DNA of 34,708 bases from Actinomycetota bacterium (GTDB lineage Bacteria > Actinomycetota > Actinomycetes > Mycobacteriales > Pseudonocardiaceae). The position numbers were made by a program, and so were the translations under genes. Under the pieces are notes generated by a model that was given only the letters and a program-made list of their open reading frames with translations, ran no database searches and had not been told where the DNA came from. Within the stretch, counting starts at the first letter, position 1; every line of letters begins with the position of its first letter. Of this stretch, positions 19,629-33,689 are shown piece by piece. The stretch spans positions 1 through 34,708 of the forward strand of contig JAJPIR010000163.1 in the NCBI GenBank assembly GCA_021324675.1, read 5' to 3'.

Positions 19629-20495
19629 GTGCACAACCATTTCAACGGGCTGAAGACCGCGCTGCTGCTCGGCGGGTTGTCGGCATTGGTGGTGCTGGTC
19701 GGAGTGCCATTCGGCCGTACCGGCGTGCTTGTCGCGCTGGTATTCGCAGTCGGCATGAACGCTTACGCCTACTTCAACTCCGACAAGTTGGCGTTGCGAG
19801 CGATGCATGCCCAGCCGGTGTCGGAGGCTGAGCAGCCGGTGATGTACCGGATCGTGCGCGAACTGGCCACCGATGCCCGCCAGCCGATGCCGCGGCTGTA
19901 CGTCAGCCCGACGCAGGCCCCCAATGCGTTTGCCACCGGCCGCAACCCGCGCCATGCCGCGGTGTGCTGCACTGTCGGAATTCTCGAGTTACTGAATGAG
20001 CGGGAACTGCGCGGGGTGCTCGGCCACGAGCTATCACACGTCTACAACCGGGACATCCTCATTTCATCTGTCGCCGGCGCGCTGGCCGGAATGGTGACGG
20101 CGCTGTCGAACCTGGCGATGTTCGCCGGGCTGTTCGGCGGTGGGGACGAGGATCGCCCGAACCCGTTCGCGATGCTGTTCATCGCCCTTCTTGGACCGAT
20201 CGCCGCCGGCATCGTGCAGATGGCGGTGAGTCGCTCGCGGGAATACCAGGCTGACGCGTCCGGTGCGACGCTCACCGGTGACCCGCTGGCTCTGGCCAGC
20301 GCGCTGCGCAAGCTGGAGCGCGGTACGCAGCTGGCGCCGCTTCGTCCCGAACCGCAACTGGCCGCGCAGTCCCACCTCATGATCGCAAACCCGTTCCGGC
20401 CGGGTGAGGGTGCGGCGCGGTTGTTTTCCACCCACCCACCCATCGCCGATCGCGTGCAGCGCCTAGAGGAGATGGCTCGCCGCCAGCTGTCCTGA
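19629..20495 (+). CDS. htpX: HtpX-type membrane zinc metalloprotease
   Basis: 288 aa M48 peptidase that degrades damaged membrane proteins at the cytoplasmic face. Two N-terminal helices (about residues 9-28 and 32-48) come first. Zinc motif HELSH is at 133-137 with the third ligand Glu205 in [10 protein letters not shown]. Two further helices (about 150-170 and 178-200) lie between them. GTG 19629 has GGGAGG nine bases upstream. M. tuberculosis likewise has htpX next to a prenyl synthase (Rv0562/Rv0563). It converges on rmlA with only eight bases between stops. Confidence 0.95.
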
Positions 20496-20503
20496 CGAAT
20501 GTG

Positions 20504-21382
20504 TCAAGACCTCGACGCCGGCCTGGCGATGTCCATGATGTACTGACCGTAGCTGGAATTTGCCATGGCCAAGCCCAGGGCGTAGCAGGCGTCGGTGCTG
20601 ATAAAGCCCATGCGGAGCGCGATTTCCTCTAGGCAGGCGATCCGGATCCCCTGGCGATGTTCGAGTACCTGCACGTACTGGCTCGCTTCGAGCAGCGATT
20701 CGTGAGTACCGGTGTCCAACCAGGCGAACCCCCGCCCCAGGTCGATCAGAACAGCCCGTCCTTGCCGCACATAGTGCATGTTCACGTCGGTGATCTCGAG
20801 TTCACCGCGGGCTGACGGAGTCAGCGAGCGAGCGATCTTCACGACTTCGTTGTCATAGAAGTACAGGCCGGTGATCGCTTTATTTGACCGGGGTAACGCC
20901 GGCTTCTCCTCGATGGAGAGCAACGTGCCAGCAGCATCAACCTCGGCAACACCGTAGCGTTGCGGATCTTTGACCGCGTAGCCGAACAGCACGCAACCGT
21001 CCAGGCTGGCTGCGCACTCCCGGAGTCGGCTGGAGAAGCCAGGACCGTAAAAAATGTTGTCACCGAGCACGAGCGCGACAGAGTCGTCTGCGATGAAATC
21101 CGCGCCGATGACGAAAGCCTCGGCCAAGCCGTTCGGGTGGGCCTGTTCCGCGTAACTCAATCGCAACCCCAGCGCGCTGCCATCACCGAGCAGCCGGTGG
21201 AACAGAGGAAGGTCGGTCGGTGTCGAGATAATCAGGATGTCCTGGATGCCGGCCAACATGAGCACTGACAGCGGGTAGTACACCATCGGTTTGTCGTAGA
21301 CCGGCAACAGCTGCTTGCAGACGGCTTGGGTGATCGGATGCAGCCGGGTGCCGGTGCCACCGGCCAGAATGATCCCTTTCAT
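20504..21382 (-). CDS. rmlA: Glucose-1-phosphate thymidylyltransferase
   Basis: 292 aa. It activates glucose-1-phosphate to dTDP-glucose, the first step to dTDP-rhamnose. The nucleotide-binding opening [16 protein letters not shown] and the motif [16 protein letters not shown] are intact, as are LGDNIFYG (about residue 108) and the C-terminal [10 protein letters not shown]. Start ATG 21382 is set by the universal MKGIILAGG start. It lacks a Shine-Dalgarno. Directly upstream is a short copy of the yajQ 3' end whose TGA overlaps this ATG. No rmlB/C/D genes are nearby. Confidence 0.95.
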
Positions 21383-21400
21383 CGATAATCGGTGAACTGC
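21379..21400 (-). repeat. 22-bp direct repeat, copy A (yajQ-tail-like)
   Basis: Identical at 20 of 22 positions to 22333-22354. On the minus strand it reads codons for QFTDYR then TGA, against QFTNYR-TGA at the true yajQ end. Its TGA overlaps the rmlA ATG as ATGA. Confidence 0.7.
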
Positions 21401-21771
21401 GTGGTAGCTGCGAAAAGCCGGGGCGTGTCTGCCCGACGCTGTCTCTGAACTGCGCCAACCATGCTCATCCCTGCCGTCGTCAGCCAGTGGTGCTCCCCGC
21501 CGTTTGTACCCCATGCGTACCCGGAGACGAACGAGGGTGTTGTTACATGATGGCTACCCGGTTGCTGACGGGGTGCAGGTTGGCGTGACAATCAGCGGAT
21601 ATCTGGAGCCCGAACCGGTATTGTCGATCCGACGGTAGTGGCTTTCGAACGGGGTCAATATACAAGTCAGGACAGTCGCGGCGTTTATTTGCCGTCGTGA
21701 TTTAAACCTGAACCGAGAACCTCTTGCGGTAGGTCGCGTCAATCAGCGGCCCTGCAATTGTCTTGTGGATC
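21401..21771. other. Non-coding, relatively low-G+C stretch upstream of rmlA
   Basis: No convincing gene on either strand. It contains A+T-rich tracts (for example around 21655-21675 and 21690-21712) unlike the flanking genes. No strong terminator is visible; a weak GGC...GCC stem around 21680-21700 could end the short transcript from the right. Confidence 0.5.
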
Positions 21772-21849
21772 TCAGCTCAGAATCGTACTGACGGTGGTGA
21801 AGATGCTAGTGAGCAGGGTGTTGACCTGGTCCAGTATGGCGGAAATCAT
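21772..21849 (-). CDS. 25-residue amphipathic peptide (micro-ORF)
   Basis: ATG 21849 to TGA 21772-21774, beginning MISAILDQVNTLL and ending TVSTILS. Hydrophobic residues fall at 2, 5, 6, 9, 12, 13, 16, 17, 20, 23 and 24, a textbook one-sided helix. The other face is Ser/Thr/Asn/Gln with a single Asp and no Lys or Arg. GAAAGGATC (21865-21857) resembles the anti-anti-SD sequence eight or nine bases upstream, and a promoter with TTGACA and TATCAT lies 65-92 bases upstream. I know no family for it. Short secreted or membrane-active peptides (phenol-soluble-modulin-like, or small helical porins of mycolic-acid bacteria) are structural analogies only. Confidence 0.6.
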   Translation of the reverse strand: MISAILDQVNTLLTSIFTTVSTILS

Positions 21850-21913
21850 GTCGAGTGATCCTTTCGTAATGCCACAAAAGCGGCTGACCCAAAGGAATGG
21901 TCGACCCCAACCG

Positions 21914-21941
21914 ATGATAGCCACAACATTGCACCTGTCAA
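21914..21941 (-). promoter_or_regulatory. Sigma-70-type promoter driving the micro-ORF
   Basis: On the minus strand a perfect -35 TTGACA (21941-21936) is followed after 16 bases by TATCAT (21919-21914). Transcription would begin near 21907, giving a leader of about 57 nt with a Shine-Dalgarno before ATG 21849. It is the best consensus promoter I can see in the window. Confidence 0.65.
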
Positions 21942-21949
21942 GTTGTCAC

Positions 21950-22332
21950 CTTGAAACGTCCTGCACGCAGAAGGATCAACTGATTTCGGAAAGTGACATG
22001 ATTGGTTGCGGTGTATTAATGCTTGGGTACGGTCCGTAACGAAGAAAGTATAGGCACCGGGCATTCACGGCTGCGCTGGCCGAGGGCAGAGATCGGTTAT
22101 ACCAGCTCGTACCCGAGGTGCTGCCCCCTGGGTAGGTCGCGGCCCTGAGGGTAGCCGCTCGATGACATTACGCGACAGTGTGGGCAAGATCGGACCGGTT
22201 AATACGTCCAACGAGCTCGGCCATGCTGCTTATCCTGGTTTAGGCCGGTGCGGAGGCTTAATGACGAATGTGCCAGATCATCAGCACTGTGCGCTCCATC
22301 GATGCAGGTCATGCCCATACGAGCGGTCGGAA
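21950..22332. other. Gap between the micro-ORF promoter and yajQ
   Basis: No supported gene. A 41-codon + strand ORF at 22261-22386 starts four bases after GGAGG and encodes a Cys/His-rich run (HQHCALHRCRSC), but it runs antisense into yajQ and is not trusted. The G+C is lower than in flanking genes. Confidence 0.4.
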
Positions 22333-22354
22333 TCATCGATAGTTGGTGAACTGC
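22333..22354 (-). repeat. 22-bp direct repeat, copy B (yajQ 3' end)
   Basis: The terminal codons QFTNYR-TGA of yajQ. Copy A at 21379-21400 has the same orientation and differs at two bases. The two copies bracket about 0.93 kb. Confidence 0.7.
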
Positions 22355-22824
22355 AAGGCGACGCCAAAGTCGCGGCCCTTCAGTAGGGCGATGACGGCCT
22401 GGAGATCATCCTTCTTCTTGCCCGAGACGCGCAGCTGGTCGCCCTGGATCTGGGTCTGCACACCCTTGAGCTTCTCGTCCCGGACCGCCTTGGCGATTTC
22501 CTTGGCTTTGTCCTGGCTGATGCCTTGCAGGATGCGACCAGTGGTCCGGTAGATCTTGCCTGAGACGGCCGGCTCGTCAACGTCGAAGGCCTTCAGCGAG
22601 ATGCCTCGCTTGACCAGCTTGCTCTTGACCACGTCGATGGCGGCGCGGCACCGTTCCTCGGTGTCGGCCTCGATCGTCATCGCGTCGTTACCGGTCCAGG
22701 TGACTTTCGCGCCGGTGCCGCGGAAGTCAAACCGGGTCGCCAGTTCTTTGGCCGCCTGGTTGAGCGCGTTATCCACTTCCTGCCGGTCGACCTTGCTGAC
22801 CACATCGAACGACGGATCTGCCAC
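22333..22824 (-). CDS. yajQ: YajQ family nucleotide-binding protein
   Basis: 163 aa, standard length, cytoplasmic. The family signature is clear: [20 protein letters not shown] at the start, TRFDFRGT near 32, [19 protein letters not shown] near 125, and the universal end ALQFTNYR. It is the orthologue of M. tuberculosis Rv0566c. Members bind nucleotides or RNA, and some bind cyclic di-GMP; the role here is unproven. GTG 22824 follows a perfect AAAGGAGG by four bases. Its 3' 22 bases recur at 21379-21400. Confidence 0.95.
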
Positions 22825-22908
22825 CGTGCCTCCTTTCCTCGGGCGGTGCCGACCTTACTCGTCAGGCCGGTCGCCACCGCGTGTCACGGATTGTGTATCG
22901 TGTCCAGC

Positions 22909-22925
22909 GGCCGGTGCGTCCGGCC
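22909..22925 (+). promoter_or_regulatory. GC-rich hairpin just upstream of tRNA-Tyr
   Basis: Perfect inverted repeat GGCCGG-TGCGT-CCGGCC ending four bases before the mature tRNA 5' end. It may lie in the pre-tRNA leader; no T-run follows, so it is not a simple terminator. Confidence 0.45.
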
Positions 22926-22929
22926 ACCA

Positions 22930-23012
22930 GGCGGGTTGCCCGAGCGGCCAATGGGAGCGGACTGTAAATCCGTCGGCTGATGCCTTCCAAGGTTCGAATC
23001 CTTGACCCGCCA
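22930..23012 (+). tRNA. tRNA-Tyr (anticodon GTA)
   Basis: 83 nt with the long variable arm expected of bacterial tRNA-Tyr. The acceptor stem pairs GGCGGGT (22930-22936) with ACCCGCC (23005-23011), with discriminator A. The anticodon GTA is at 22964-22966 in a CTGTAAA loop. The T arm contains GGTTCGAATCC. The 3' CCA is not encoded. It marks the left edge of a gene-decay region. Confidence 0.95.
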
Positions 23013-23217
23013 CGTAGCACAAACGGACTTCGCCGGAACGGACCAGGTTGGGGGCGGATCCGCGGATCTTCGCAGCATCTGGCGCTGTCTGTCGTGTCCG
23101 GTTGTCTCCTCCTCGGCGCAGCGCGACCACCCGGCATCCCGGAGGGCTACACGCCACCGGATCGCCGGCTGAGCTTGCCATGCTTGCCCCGGTGCACGGG
23201 ATGACCGCCCTCCGGGG

Positions 23218-23532
23218 GTGTACATCGCGGTCAGCGGTGAGATCGATTTGGGCAACGCCGCTGCGTTCGACAGCGAACTTCGGGCGGCGATCGCTGATCA
23301 ACTGCGTGCGGTCTCCGTCGACCTGACCGATTTGAGGTACCTGGATAGCGCGGGAATACGGATCCTTTTGGTGCTCGCATCTTGCTGAAAACCGCTGCGA
23401 GTCATCGGCCCAGCCGCAGCCCGAGTGCCGAACTCGTACGCTGGGGAGCTGGGGCGTCTGGGCGGCCCGGCAGAGCCCGACTGGGCCCTAGCTTGGGCCA
23501 GCTCTCGACGGACGGAGATTCAGCGACTGTGA
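23218..23532 (+). pseudogene. STAS-domain (anti-anti-sigma) gene with an in-frame stop
   Basis: Reading from GTG 23218 gives YIAVSGEIDLGNAAAF, then VDLTDLRYLDSAGIRILLVL, the core of a STAS antagonist with the phospho-acceptor Ser in LDSAG. TGA at 23386-23388 stops this frame after 56 residues. The same frame continues with KPLRVIGPAAARV, which matches the usual STAS C-terminal segment, up to TGA 23530-23532. The total is 104 codons, the normal STAS length. The N-terminal strand looks short. I read it as a decayed RsbV-like gene. A frameshift would explain the end less simply, because homology resumes in the same frame. Confidence 0.7.
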
Positions 23533-28573: not shown

Positions 28574-30433
28574 TTACTTGGGCGCCGTACCCCGGTGCGG
28601 CACTCTGATGCCGTAGTACCGGATCTTGCGGTAAATCGTGGCCCGCGACATGCCGAGGTGGCGGGCAGCCTCGACACGGTTGCCGCCAGCGTTGACCAAC
28701 GCGTCGACGACCGCGTCCCGTTCGATGGACTCCAGGGGGCTGAGCACGCGCCGGGCAGTTGCCAACGCTTCCGGCGGTAGATCGGCGAGCTCAATCACTC
28801 CGGCGCGCCGGTGTGCCACGATCTTGCCCAGCATCTCCCGCAGTTGCTCGACGTTGCCTGGCCAGCGATTGCGCATGAGCTGCCGCATCACTTCCGCCGA
28901 GCAGGTCAGGTTGGCACCCCGGGTCAGCCGCGCGATCAGCATCCGGACCAGCTCGGGGAGGTCGTCGATGTGATGGCGCAATGGTGGCACCTGTACCGAA
29001 GCCGAGAAGCATCCGATCAGGTTGTCCAGTTGGGCGCTGCGGGGCGTGCTGCAGTTGCGCGTTGCTACCACCCAGCTGCGGGCATGGGCGCTATCACGCC
29101 GCGCCGTGGCCAGCAGCTCGGCCAGGGATTGAAGAACGTCGGCGGGCAGGCGGTCGACGTGCCGCAAGACCAGGGTGCCCGCCCGTAGCGCCAGCTCCTC
29201 GGCTACCGCGCCGAGCCACTCGTCAGCATCCGCGCAGTCGTCGGCGTCCAGGACCCGCAGGTGCGCGCCCGGCGTGCCGGCCCGGTGTGCCCCAGCCGCC
29301 ACCGTCAATTTGCCGACCCCTGGTTCACCTTCCAGATCTACCCACTCGCCTGCTCGCAGGTGCGCCTGGACCATCGCGCAGCACCGCATCCACGGCATGC
29401 TGGTACCGCTCACTCCAGGCATCGTGCGGCTGGGATCAGATATCCCGGGGGCCGTTGGCCGAGTCGCCGGCTCGGTGTCGAGCAGCTGCACCTGCACGAC
29501 GCCGCCGATCGCTGCTGACTCGCTCCAGCTCGGTTTGCAGCTCACCCGCGCGGTTGCCCCACTGGGCAGCGATGTGGTGAACACCCGAGACTTACCGCCG
29601 GCCAGGGCCTCGATGGCCTCCCCGAGCAAGGCCACCTGGTCGTGCGGGTCGATGAGCTCGCGAGCGCTGTCGTTCATCATCAGCAGGTCCGTGCTGATGG
29701 CCAGCACGCAACCACGATTGCGCCGGCAGGCCAGCAGGTAGTCGTGCAGCAGTGCAAGCTCCCGGCGGCCAACTTGCTCCAGCAGCGCCTCTTCTATCTG
29801 GGCGGCAATACTGGAGGCGGCTGCGATCATCGCCATATTGGCGTCGCTTCGCCAGCAGGTCAGATCCAGGATGCCCAGGATCTTGCCGGTGGTCGGATGG
29901 CGGATCGGGGCGCCAGCACAGGCCAGATCTTCCAGGTGTTCGACGTAATGCTCATGGCCGAAGACGTGCGCGGGGCCGCGACCTTCCAGCGCGGTGCCGA
30001 TCCCGTTGGTTCCGGCGAACTGCTCGGCGTAGCTGAACCCGGGCGCCAGCCAGACCCTGTCGAGTTTGTGCTCCAACCGGGAGTCGCCGGTGCGGCGGTC
30101 CAAGACCACGCCGGCAGCGTCGGTGAGGATGATGCTCAGCGCTTCGTCGGCGTGTTGCGCGGCTGCCGCGCTGATGGGTCCGTCCGCGCATCGAGCTAGG
30201 CGTGACTTGCGGTCGAAGTTGGGTTTGAAGGGCAGCTCAAGGTGATCGGTGGCGACGTGCCAGTCGCGGGATCGGGTCCACGACGCCAGAATGCTGTCCC
30301 GGACGGCGTCAGTGCTGACTGGTTCGGAGGTGAGAAACCGTTCCCGGGCCTGCGCCAAACCGGCGCCGCGCCGCGTGCCCCGGTTTCCGGTCGTCGCAGC
30401 GTTGCTGGCTGAGGGTAGGCGTGAGTCAGCCAA
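28574..30433 (-). CDS. GAF-AAA+-Fis transcriptional activator, paralogue 1 (MimR/AcoR type)
   Basis: 619 aa from TTG 30433. A GAF-like sensor (about residues 90-210, GFSYAEQFAGTNGIGTALEG, FGHEHYVEHLEDLACAGAPI) is followed by a second sensory region, an AAA+ domain and a C-terminal Fis HTH (VEAARHLGMSRATIYRKIRYYG). Walker A is GEPGVGK (Lys375) and the Walker-B-like Asp is 427. Only 52 residues separate them and no GAFTGA loop exists, so contact with sigma-54 is not expected, in line with actinobacteria lacking that factor. TTG 30433 has a perfect AAGGAGG eight bases upstream and gives an N-terminus as long as paralogue 2. ATG 30460 is the alternative. Known relatives activate acetoin or propane-oxidation genes. 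Confidence 0.88.
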   Translation of the reverse strand: MADSRLPSASNAATTGNRGTRRGAGLAQARERFLTSEPVSTDAVRDSILASWTRSRDWHVATDHLELPFKPNFDRKSRLARCADGPISAAAAQHADEALSIILTDAAGVVLDRRTGDSRLEHKLDRVWLAPGFSYAEQFAGTNGIGTALEGRGPAHVFGHEHYVEHLEDLACAGAPIRHPTTGKILGILDLTCWRSDANMAMIAAASSIAAQIEEALLEQVGRRELALLHDYLLACRRNRGCVLAISTDLLMMNDSARELIDPHDQVALLGEAIEALAGGKSRVFTTSLPSGATARVSCKPSWSESAAIGGVVQVQLLDTEPATRPTAPGISDPSRTMPGVSGTSMPWMRCCAMVQAHLRAGEWVDLEGEPGVGKLTVAAGAHRAGTPGAHLRVLDADDCADADEWLGAVAEELALRAGTLVLRHVDRLPADVLQSLAELLATARRDSAHARSWVVATRNCSTPRSAQLDNLIGCFSASVQVPPLRHHIDDLPELVRMLIARLTRGANLTCSAEVMRQLMRNRWPGNVEQLREMLGKIVAHRRAGVIELADLPPEALATARRVLSPLESIERDAVVDALVNAGGNRVEAARHLGMSRATIYRKIRYYGIRVPHRGTAPK

Positions 30434-30514
30434 GGGCGCTGCCTCCTTGGAGCTGGACATCCGACGTTAGTCGTTCCGCCGAGCCCACGGTAGGGAAGCG
30501 GGCGAGTTCGGACT

Positions 30515-31414: not shown

Positions 31415-33283
31415 TCAGGTGCGAGCCGGGCGCTCCGGCACGAGCGGCATCCTGATCCCGTACTCGCGAATCTTGCGGTAGATCGTGGCGCGAGACATGC
31501 CAAGCTGCTGGGCGGCGCGGAGCTTGTTGCCCTCAGTGTTGAGCAAAGCCTGCACAATCGCATCGCGCTCCATGGATTCCAGCGGGGTAAGCAGCCGGCG
31601 GCTGCTCGCCCGGCACTCAGGCGGCAGGTCAGCTACCGTAATGACGCCCGTCCGGCGATTGGCGACGATCTTGCGCAAGGTCTGGTAGAGCTGTGTGATG
31701 TTGCCCGTCCACCGGTTTCGCATCAACATCCGCACCGCTTCGGGTGAGCACGACAGCGAACCGCCCTTGGTCAGCCGGGAAATAATGAACGGCACCAGCT
31801 CATAGAGGTCTTCAATGTGATGGCGCAACGGCGGAACCTGCACCGAGCGGGGGAAGCAGCGAAGCAGCCGGGCAAGGTCGCCGTCATAGTCCAGAAGTTG
31901 GTGGCCGCGGGTTGCCACCACCCACGGCCGAGCGATGTCGGTCGATTCGCGATGCGGCTCGAGTACGTCATACAGCGCCCGCAAGGCCTCGTCGGGCAGC
32001 TGGTCGATGTGGGTCAGGATGATCGTCTGAGTACCGCTGTCAATCTCCTCCGCGACCTCGTCCACCCACCGCGCGCAGTCGGTTGCCGTGGCGATCTCCG
32101 TCCCGTCGAACGCTCGCACGCGCCCGGCCGGCAGGTGACGCTGGTGTGTACCGCGGGCAATCGTCAGCTTGCCCACGCCAGGCTCGCCCTCCAACACCAG
32201 CCATTCCCCGGATTGGAAGTACCGATCGACGTCTCGGCAACACTTGGTCCACAGCATCCCGGAACCCGCAGCCGCCGGCAGGTTGACCGCCGGCTGCTTG
32301 ACGTCGTGACTGTGATCGACGGCAAGCGGCTGACTCAGCTGCACTTGAACAACCCCGCCGGTGACCGCGCGATCGTTCCAGCTGGGCTTACACAGCACTC
32401 GTGCTGTCGCACCGCTGGGCAGATCCAGGATCAGTAGCTGCCGGCCGCCCGTACTCAGTGCCTCGGTAGCCTGCGCCAGGATGGCTTGCTGATCTTCGGG
32501 CTCGAGGATCTCCCGGGCTCGATCGTTCATCATCAGCATGTCGTTGCTGATCGCCAGTACGGCGGCGTGACCGCGCCGGCACGTCTGGAGGTAGTCCTGC
32601 AGTAATGCCACCTCGTGCCGGCCAGCGTGCTCGAACAGAGCTTCTTCGATCCGCTTCGCGGCCGTCGTGGCGGCGGCCACCATCAGGGGGTTGGCATCCA
32701 CTCGCCAACAGGTCAGGTCGATGACGCCGACCAGCCTGCCGGTTATGGGGTCGTGAATGGGCGCGCCGGCACAAGCCAAGTCCTCAAGGTGCTCGACGTA
32801 GTGTTCGTGTCCGAAGACCTCAGCCGGGCCACGGCCTTCAAGCGCGGTGCCGATCCCGTTAGTTCCAACGTGCTGCTCGGAGTAGCTGAATCCGATGTCC
32901 AGCTTCACACCATCCAGATGCGCGCGAAGCGCCGGGTCGCCGGTGCGCCTGTCTAGCACCACACCCTGGGCGTCGGTCAGAACGATGCAGACCGGTTCGC
33001 CGGCAAGCTGGTCTGCGAGATCACTGATAACTTTGCTAGCGCTATAAGTAAGCCGCGTATCCCGATTTGGATTGGGGTCGTAAGGCAGATCAAAATGATC
33101 GGCGGGTACATTCCAGTTTCTGGATCGTGTCCAGGACGCCAGGATGCTATGGCGCACGACTCCGGGTTTTACGGGTTCCGCGGTGAGGAAACATTCCCGC
33201 GCGCTGGCCAGGAGCGGGCTGGCGCCGGGCGGCTCGCGTGCTGCGGCTCCCGATCGGTCGTCTCGCGGGTGCGCTTCGACCAC
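31415..33283 (-). CDS. GAF-AAA+-Fis transcriptional activator, paralogue 2 (MimR/AcoR type)
   Basis: 622 aa from GTG 33283, and co-linear with paralogue 1 over its whole length, sharing ILASWTRSR, FGHEHYVEHLEDLACAGAP and GMSRATIYRKIR. The GAF sensor, AAA+ region with GEPGVGK (Lys372) and C-terminal Fis HTH are present. GAFTGA is absent here too. GAAGGGG lies seven to eight bases before GTG 33283, and this start matches the paralogue's length; TTG 33352 would add 23 residues. It is divergent from the diiron monooxygenase gene, so it is the better candidate for its direct activator, as MimR is for mim genes in mycobacteria. Confidence 0.88.
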   Translation of the reverse strand: MVEAHPRDDRSGAAAREPPGASPLLASARECFLTAEPVKPGVVRHSILASWTRSRNWNVPADHFDLPYDPNPNRDTRLTYSASKVISDLADQLAGEPVCIVLTDAQGVVLDRRTGDPALRAHLDGVKLDIGFSYSEQHVGTNGIGTALEGRGPAEVFGHEHYVEHLEDLACAGAPIHDPITGRLVGVIDLTCWRVDANPLMVAAATTAAKRIEEALFEHAGRHEVALLQDYLQTCRRGHAAVLAISNDMLMMNDRAREILEPEDQQAILAQATEALSTGGRQLLILDLPSGATARVLCKPSWNDRAVTGGVVQVQLSQPLAVDHSHDVKQPAVNLPAAAGSGMLWTKCCRDVDRYFQSGEWLVLEGEPGVGKLTIARGTHQRHLPAGRVRAFDGTEIATATDCARWVDEVAEEIDSGTQTIILTHIDQLPDEALRALYDVLEPHRESTDIARPWVVATRGHQLLDYDGDLARLLRCFPRSVQVPPLRHHIEDLYELVPFIISRLTKGGSLSCSPEAVRMLMRNRWTGNITQLYQTLRKIVANRRTGVITVADLPPECRASSRRLLTPLESMERDAIVQALLNTEGNKLRAAQQLGMSRATIYRKIREYGIRMPLVPERPART

Positions 33284-33689
33284 AAGTCGCCCCTTCGGAA
33301 CCTCGATGATCCGTAGTGGCGGCGCTATGCCGACGTTGGCATCGTGCCTCAACCGGAGTGCCCCGCCGCACCCCAGGTTAGGCGCAATCAGGCCTATGTC
33401 TCATGTTGAGACGGTCGGCATTCACCCGTGGGTGTGTGATGCAACACATGGCATGGATGCCTTCCGGCGAGTGCCCGACGTGTTCTGGACCGCGGCGGGC
33501 GCCCCGCGTGGCGGCTGTGCCAGTGCCGGGGGAAGCGGGGATGTCATCGAAATGATGCGCCCAGCCCCGAGCGCTTCAGTCCATCAGCCAATGCACGTGA
33601 CCGTGACTTCAAGCATAGAGAAGCCAACCCGAGCAAGTGAACGACGCTGACGGCTAGCGCTGCAGCGCACACGGGTGAGGAGTGTGACC
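33284..33689. promoter_or_regulatory. Divergent control region between activator 2 and the monooxygenase
   Basis: 406 bases without a gene. It contains the palindrome at 33398-33412 and a second, looser inverted repeat TGTGT-N6-ACACA at 33433-33448. No convincing -10/-35 pair is seen for either direction. A GAGGAG Shine-Dalgarno lies just before the monooxygenase ATG. Confidence 0.5.
33398..33412. promoter_or_regulatory. Palindromic operator between activator 2 and the monooxygenase
   Basis: GTCTCA-TGT-TGAGAC with arms identical to those at 30515-30529. It lies 115 bases upstream of GTG 33283 and 277 bases upstream of the monooxygenase ATG, so it could serve either gene. Confidence 0.7.

Follow-up and report, generated by a model that had tools for sequence, protein, structure and literature searches.

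The DNA analysed here, called the window in the following, is a stretch of 34,708 nucleotides. Pfam assigns to it, in this order, NADH dehydrogenase subunits, a polyprenyl synthetase, an enoyl-CoA hydratase, an AsnC-type regulator and an M48 peptidase, followed by a nucleotidyl transferase and, beyond the small peptide gene described here, a DUF520 protein and a tRNA-Tyr. We take the M48 peptidase to be htpX, the nucleotidyl transferase to be rmlA and the DUF520 protein to be yajQ. The interval of approximately 950 bases that separates rmlA from yajQ contains the peptide gene, and all three genes share one strand. The distance from the end of yajQ to rmlA is 953 bases in the window; in the genomes G010, G002 and G008 it is 274, 1225 and 862 bases, respectively. 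A direct repeat of 22 bases (21379-21400 and 22333-22354, 91% identical, spacing 954) flanks this interval, the 3' end of yajQ being echoed across the start of rmlA, and may have been left behind by an insertion or duplication at this end of yajQ.

Some further features of the surroundings are worth recording. A stretch of 23 bases inside yajQ (22515-22537) is 83% identical to 22975-22997 within the tRNA-Tyr gene, probably by chance, and two proteins with GAF, AAA-lid and Fis-type HTH domains are encoded on the minus strand (28574-30460 and 31415-33352) with a methyltransferase between them, perhaps as a duplicated regulator pair. In two genomes, G001 (L007, 1501-3084) and G009 (L006, 1501-2077), a short stretch of the rmlA-side end of the interval recurs, and a transposase-like gene (Mu-type/rve and DUF4096 according to Pfam) lies no more than a few hundred bases further on. 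In G001, the transposase-like gene and rmlA have a methyltransferase gene between them, and the recurring stretch reads as a yajQ-like tail. Perhaps this is an insertion hot spot.

All elements of the peptide gene are found on the minus strand. A -35 box TTGACA (21936-21941) is separated by a spacer of 16 nt from a -10 box TATCAT (21914-21919), and from the position of the latter we infer a transcription start near 21907. The 5' leader would then extend from 21907 to 21850 and comprise 58 nt, close to the value of about 57 nt given in an earlier, sequence-only reading of this DNA. It is predicted to form a single hairpin that hides the Shine-Dalgarno sequence GAAAGGA (21859-21865). The open reading frame (21772-21849) consists of 25 codons and a TGA and encodes MISAILDQVNTLLTSIFTTVSTILS, which would be amphipathic if helical; its ATG occupies 21849-21847, the last codon ends at 21775 and the stop codon is at 21774-21772. 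The sequence-only reading had described the same succession of -35 box, -10 box, leader, Shine-Dalgarno sequence and ATG, and we find each element at its place. When both strands of the window were scanned for promoters with a spacing of 16-18 and a -10 box with A at position 2 and T at position 6, just one site reached at least 10 of 12 consensus bases, namely that of the peptide gene. Judged by this layout, the gene is self-contained: a sigma-70-type promoter close to consensus is followed by a leader of 58 nt and an ORF of 25 codons. An ORF on the opposite strand (21758-22039, 93 codons, TTG start) was also considered as the real gene and set aside, because its frame has stops in both the orthologue and the paralogue described below over the compared stretch.

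The hydrophobic residues of the peptide stand where the sequence-only reading had put them, and the absence of positive charge is borne out as well: there is no K, R or H, and D7 is the sole acidic residue. Among the 585 start-to-stop frames of 20-40 codons in the window (nested starts counted), the peptide is the only one with an Eisenberg moment of at least 0.43 and a mean hydrophobicity of at least 0.3, these thresholds being the peptide's own values. The helical moments are 0.431 for the window peptide, 0.412 for the orthologue and 0.363 for the paralogue, with peaks at 98-100 degrees, and they were reached by only 9, 3 and 1 of 100,000 residue shuffles, respectively. The three peptides (25, 25 and 32 amino acids) have one acidic residue each, and the face map of all three displays a hydroxyl face and an aliphatic face with a periodicity of 100 degrees over a length that would span a bilayer. 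AlphaFold2 run without an alignment on the 32-residue paralogue, the only one of the three modelled since 25 residues are below the length of the tool, predicts a single helix of residues 2-31 (mean pLDDT 94.8).

A search with the peptide in the 11 genomes of the genus gave one further copy, in G004, with 60% identity, an E-value of 0.006 and no stop. This copy is an orthologue, which was also found by DNA (658 of the 950 interval bases at 76% identity, E 9.8e-125). It is syntenic: rmlA and yajQ flank it as they do in the window, and the M48 peptidase gene is again the next one. A search of public genome contigs with the leader pattern returned one record, JAFAWY010000138.1 from a Pseudonocardiales metagenome-assembled genome, which is presumably the record of the orthologue itself. 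A second copy in the window's own genome (G000:C4), found by DNA similarity both with the interval (E 6.8e-20) and with the promoter and leader (E 8.3e-21), is a paralogue. Its promoter, leader and start are 79% identical to those of the window and its ORF encodes MVSAILSVISSSLDTVNTAIGSVLSTIGGIAS; the similarity tapers off upstream of the -35 box and shortly past the stop codon. The stretch around the paralogue has no long ORFs, and a transposase-like gene is approximately 0.5-0.7 kb away. The contig of the paralogue (L016, 9970-14362) further encodes a Trp-halogenase-like protein, a GCS2-type ligase and a LanC-like fragment, perhaps as part of a biosynthetic cluster. We rejected the idea that the peptide is a lanthipeptide precursor, as cysteine is absent in all copies, despite this LanC-like fragment.

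Promoter, leader, the region of the Shine-Dalgarno sequence and start codon, and the amphipathic pattern are common to all three copies. The -35 box is the same in all of them, and the -10 box is TATCAT in the orthologue and TATTAT in the paralogue. Between window and orthologue, the identity amounts to 89.5% in the leader, 85.3% in the promoter, 77.6% in the ORF and 76.3% in the rmlA-side flank, no inference being drawn at yajQ, where the alignment is poor. The ORF is therefore hardly more identical than the flank, and it is the intact frame that sets it apart: the flank of 392 nt has 20 deleted and 24 inserted bases, the ORF none. Frameshifting indels in a relative, which the sequence-only reading had named as speaking against the gene, are thus absent from the one orthologue. 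The leaders of the three copies differ in length by single nucleotides and no ORF differs out of frame. The 7 extra residues of the paralogue correspond to two helix turns, and the faces remain in phase.

The same reading had proposed to look for synonymous-biased change, and this is not what we found. Between window and orthologue 10 of the 25 residues differ, in line with the 10.2-10.3 expected if the same 17 nucleotide changes fell at random, so there is no synonymous bias. What is constrained in this pair is the kind of residue change. All 12 positions of the window peptide occupied by V, I, L, M or F have one of these five residues in the orthologue as well, an outcome reached in 1,703 of 50,000 random-mutation runs with these 17 changes. 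When a run had to match the open frame, the moment, the polarity and the lack of K, R, H, P and C all at once, by criteria picked after the peptides had been seen, 60 and 15 of 50,000 runs did so in the two directions. The gene for a short amphipathic peptide that the sequence-only reading had proposed is therefore well supported by a syntenic orthologue and a paralogue that keep promoter, leader, start and the 100-degree moment. We regard it as very probable that this unannotated and lineage-restricted small gene is real, and the two related copies suggest a real, uncharacterised small gene family.

The leader is the part that is conserved best. In the predicted hairpin of the window, an outer stem is formed by GUCGA (21901-21905) and UCGAC (21850-21854), the latter directly before the ATG, and its five pairs are identical in all three copies. 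Further inside, the anti-Shine-Dalgarno arm UCCUUU (21891-21896) pairs with 21859-21864, one pair of this stem being broken in the orthologue, and an apical stem-loop GCCGC-UUUU-GUGGC (21871-21884) is predicted in between. In the apical stem, a C-G pair is replaced by U-A in the orthologue, a compensatory change, and 2 of the 5 pairs are missing in the paralogue. In the predictions for all copies, UCCUU pairs with the Shine-Dalgarno sequence and GUCGA with the UCGAC beside the AUG. Even the unpaired bases of the leader are identical across the three copies. According to the model, the six paired Shine-Dalgarno bases in the window are at most 3% unpaired at 37 °C. In the orthologue, the unpaired fraction is about one third at three Shine-Dalgarno bases. 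An RNA thermometer is not favoured, as the modelled Shine-Dalgarno sequence of the window stays closed from 20 to 50 °C, with at most 12% unpaired at one base.

The window RNA from 21907 through the ATG has a predicted folding energy of -24.5 kcal/mol, compared with a mean of -13.7 for shuffled sequences (z -3.92), and none of 200 shuffles was as stable. The orthologue gives a similar result (z -3.79, 0 of 200), and the fold of the paralogue leader is weak (z -1.64, 11 of 200). The opposite strand of the window also folds at the leader (z -2.71), and the signal shrinks when coding sequence is added, to z -2.59 at 78 nt and -1.05 at 136 nt. Among random 60-mers of the GC-rich window, 286 of 2,000 fold as well as the leader by energy; it is only relative to its own composition that the leader stands out in folding. 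Across all three copies, 94.1% of the cells of the structure are paired, against at most 51.0% in slid controls, the structure having been derived from one of the three compared sequences, and this value was reached by 49 of 500 shuffles. Covariation is non-significant, with one compensatory pair, matched by 162 of 500 shuffles. Taken as a model, the hairpin likely locks the ribosome site. An Rfam scan of 20400-23400 gave the tRNA alone above threshold.

The distribution of the gene appears to be narrow. A DNA search with promoter and leader matched in 2 of 390 genomes of the family. The covariance model R1, which was built from the three known copies and scores for these by construction, gave matches in 2 of the 11 genomes of the genus and, with stricter filters and 8-9 candidates scored per genome listed, in 2 of 390 genomes of the family, 1 of 397 of the order and 1 of 396 of the phylum, the single genome being the window's own in the last two cases. 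No R1 match was obtained in 9 of the 11 genus genomes; four of these nine have a listed completeness of 87%, and several are split into hundreds of contigs. The gene could be of recent origin or frequently lost. A profile of the peptides, searched in 371 family genomes, recovered the three known places and seven weak matches (E 0.013-0.09), all within open frames of 110-719 amino acids and taken as chance. An rmlA-like gene is present in 10 of the 11 genus genomes. A homology-free scan upstream of rmlA at 11 loci, asking for a Shine-Dalgarno sequence, 18-45 amino acids, a moment above 0.3 and a shuffle fraction below 0.02, returned only the two known peptides; three of these loci reach just 645, 548 and 312 bases upstream of rmlA, so that absence is not established there. 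R1 applied without filters to 13 loci found the known copies alone, with the next best at E 3.1.

Mobile elements and family libraries contributed no relatives. In viral contigs, the single match of one pattern is considered chance, since no homologous start and peptide follow, and a second pattern had no match. The contig of the single match, an IMG/VR contig of 2,967 bases (L015, 1840-1905), carries the same GGTCGACCATTCCTT word and then, by eye, a hairpin-like stretch and AAAAGGA, which we judge to be chance. Searches of plasmids and of phage proteins gave no match, and in phage DNA six 24-base matches in terminase genes of Salmonella phages (E 0.5) are of chance level. None of the three peptides hits a family above cut-off in Pfam, PHROGs, PADLOC or NCBIfam; the last of these has a single line, for the paralogue, whose 11.2 bits fall short of the cut-off of 40. 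The window peptide has no match among PDB sequences. The statement of the sequence-only reading that no family matches holds in these resources. Among the matches listed in the open-access literature, none deals with the peptide or with a type I toxin from Pseudonocardiales. We do not favour a mycoloylated porin of the PorA/PorH type, since the record belongs to Pseudonocardiales, which are not known to have mycolic acids.

Type I toxin genes are controlled by an antitoxin RNA, and our scan of the three intervals did not reveal an opposing promoter-like site common to all copies. A site TTGACC-17-AATCAT (9 of 12) is present in the window and the orthologue and absent in the scan of the paralogue. 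The longest perfect complement to the leader within the intervals has 9 bases and occurs in one of the three. A pattern of 18 nt from the leader, searched with up to three mismatches, gave, beyond the known copies, just control-level matches with three mismatches in two genomes. A trans-acting RNA that pairs over a short stretch may still exist.

Small hydrophobic type I toxins of the Fst/Ldr type consist of a short membrane helix and are often chromosomal and present in several copies. Their motif, according to the relevant section of PMC8309996, is PXXXGC. This motif is absent, by eye, in our three peptides, and an antisense RNA was not found at the intervals. With 25, 25 and 32 amino acids, the peptides lie below the 60 amino acids of the size criterion for type I toxins and have the amphipathic pattern, a helix being predicted for one of them. 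Most known type I toxins are positively charged, as far as the consulted part of the same source (PMC8309996) goes, and in this respect the window peptide differs from them. A close parallel is TisB of the TisB/IstR-1 system of E. coli, described in the consulted passages of two sources (PMC8309996, PMC3919570) as an amphiphilic helix of 29 amino acids that forms narrow membrane pores and whose ribosome site is hidden by mRNA structure. Our gene resembles it in the predicted small amphipathic helix and the predicted inaccessible ribosome site, but here the scans gave neither an antitoxin RNA nor a standby site, positive charge is missing and the phylum is a different one. Homology to TisB was compared through the family libraries of Pfam, NCBIfam, PHROGs and PADLOC only.

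Two other groups of peptides come close in different respects. The synthetic peptides (LSSLLSL)3 and (LSLLLSL)3 of the DeGrado group have 21 residues with an aliphatic and a Ser face and form cation or proton channels in bilayers (PMC6824673, in the part on these designs). The window peptide shares the hydroxyl face, the aliphatic face and a similar length with them; unlike these designed peptides it is natural, Thr and Asn join Ser, there is one acidic residue, and the channel is putative. The alpha-type phenol-soluble modulins and LspU of Staphylococcus are, in the consulted portion of PMC12607899, likewise short amphipathic helices overlooked by annotation. Here, in contrast to them, there is no exporter gene among 29 neighbouring ORFs and no lysine, the leader is predicted to hide the Shine-Dalgarno sequence, and the host is an actinobacterium.

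Based on these features, the following mechanism can be proposed. Transcription would begin near 21907 from the near-consensus promoter. In the mRNA, the 5' arm UCCUUU is predicted to pair with AAAGGA of the Shine-Dalgarno sequence in a hairpin whose base closes right before the AUG. Since this hairpin would bury the Shine-Dalgarno sequence, the mRNA would be made and translated little. Opening of the hairpin by some trigger, or by breathing, would allow the peptide to be made. The peptide would then be one continuous alpha helix, as predicted for the 32-residue paralogue, with an aliphatic/aromatic face opposite a Ser/Thr/Asn face and a length that could span a bilayer. This helix may insert into the cytoplasmic membrane of the producer or lie on it, and several helices together could enclose a small pore lined by their polar faces. 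The reading we prefer, at a likelihood slightly below even, is that of a membrane-active and perhaps pore-forming peptide kept scarce by the hairpin of its own mRNA. By analogy, and with moderate confidence, a membrane-active peptide encoded behind a strong promoter and a locked ribosome site follows the logic of type I toxins such as TisB. Our description is thus that the gene may work in the manner of a type I toxin; we do not count it among these toxins, since no antitoxin RNA turned up in the scans described above. For the peptide itself, we infer that it may be expressed, act on the membrane, form a pore and be toxic.

There are other ways to explain such a gene. The peptide might leave the cell unprocessed and serve as a surfactant, an aggregation factor or a weak antimicrobial against neighbours. 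Its size, the predicted single helix without an obvious signal sequence, the two copies in one genome and the drift of the sequence with a preserved amphipathic pattern would all suit such a secreted surface-active peptide. However, Pfam reveals no exporter, such as the dedicated ABC exporter of phenol-soluble modulins, among the 19 ORFs of the window and the 10 ORFs of the paralogue contig (6 of these 29 have no family), and the paralogue sits near a transposase-like gene in a stretch without long ORFs. Moreover, phenol-soluble modulins and leaderless bacteriocins usually have lysines, and our peptide has neither K nor R, and one would hardly expect a locked ribosome site in the gene of an abundant secreted product. 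We therefore hold secretion to be improbable. The same degree of doubt applies to a small regulator of a membrane protein or a sensor of the membrane surface, i.e. a helix that binds its partner or surface harmlessly, as SpoVM and AcrZ do. The helix geometry would permit such a role and low toxicity would explain the strong promoter, but the change of 10 of 25 residues under a constant pattern fits lipid better than a specific protein partner, and the lack of a match in 9 of the 11 genus genomes also speaks against it.

The conservation of the leader raises the question whether the RNA is the product, in which case the hairpin would be functional in a structured small RNA and the ORF secondary or accidental. 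The leader is indeed better conserved than the ORF (identity 0.895 vs 0.776), including its unpaired bases in all three copies. Against this stand the frame and the amphipathic pattern of the ORF, which are rarely kept under random mutation, the length difference of the paralogue, which is a multiple of three and keeps the helix in phase, and the single-nucleotide length differences, which occur in the leader and have no out-of-frame counterpart in the ORFs. An RNA product is accordingly quite unlikely in our view. That the ORF is spurious and lies by chance downstream of a promoter-like sequence is highly improbable: it has just 25 codons, is found in only two genomes and lacks synonymous bias, but it exists in three homologous copies that retain promoter, leader, start and pattern, and one of these lies where the gene order is not shared. 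As for the sequence-only reading, its observation stands and its interpretation stands in part. The roles it had put forward, namely a membrane-active peptide, a pore former or a regulator of a membrane protein, would each be compatible with the gene; the predicted hairpin that hides the Shine-Dalgarno sequence and the second copy in the genome had been overlooked.

ORFs of such length are usually skipped by gene finders, and the family described here was recognised from the raw window and via relatives that preserve the biophysical pattern more than the sequence. If the peptide is indeed membrane-active and locked by its mRNA, type I-like regulation would extend to an actinobacterial lineage, and a natural charge-poor peptide would be at hand for asking whether helices of the Leu/Ser type form channels in living bacteria. 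In its most far-reaching form, the idea is that of a new actinobacterial family of natural channel peptides with a Ser/Thr-lined face and without a basic residue, a counterpart in nature to the designed Leu/Ser channels, silenced by a hairpin and released on demand to depolarise the membrane of the producer. We regard this form as speculative and rather unlikely. If true, it would represent a type I-like switch for dormancy or self-limitation outside the known toxin families.
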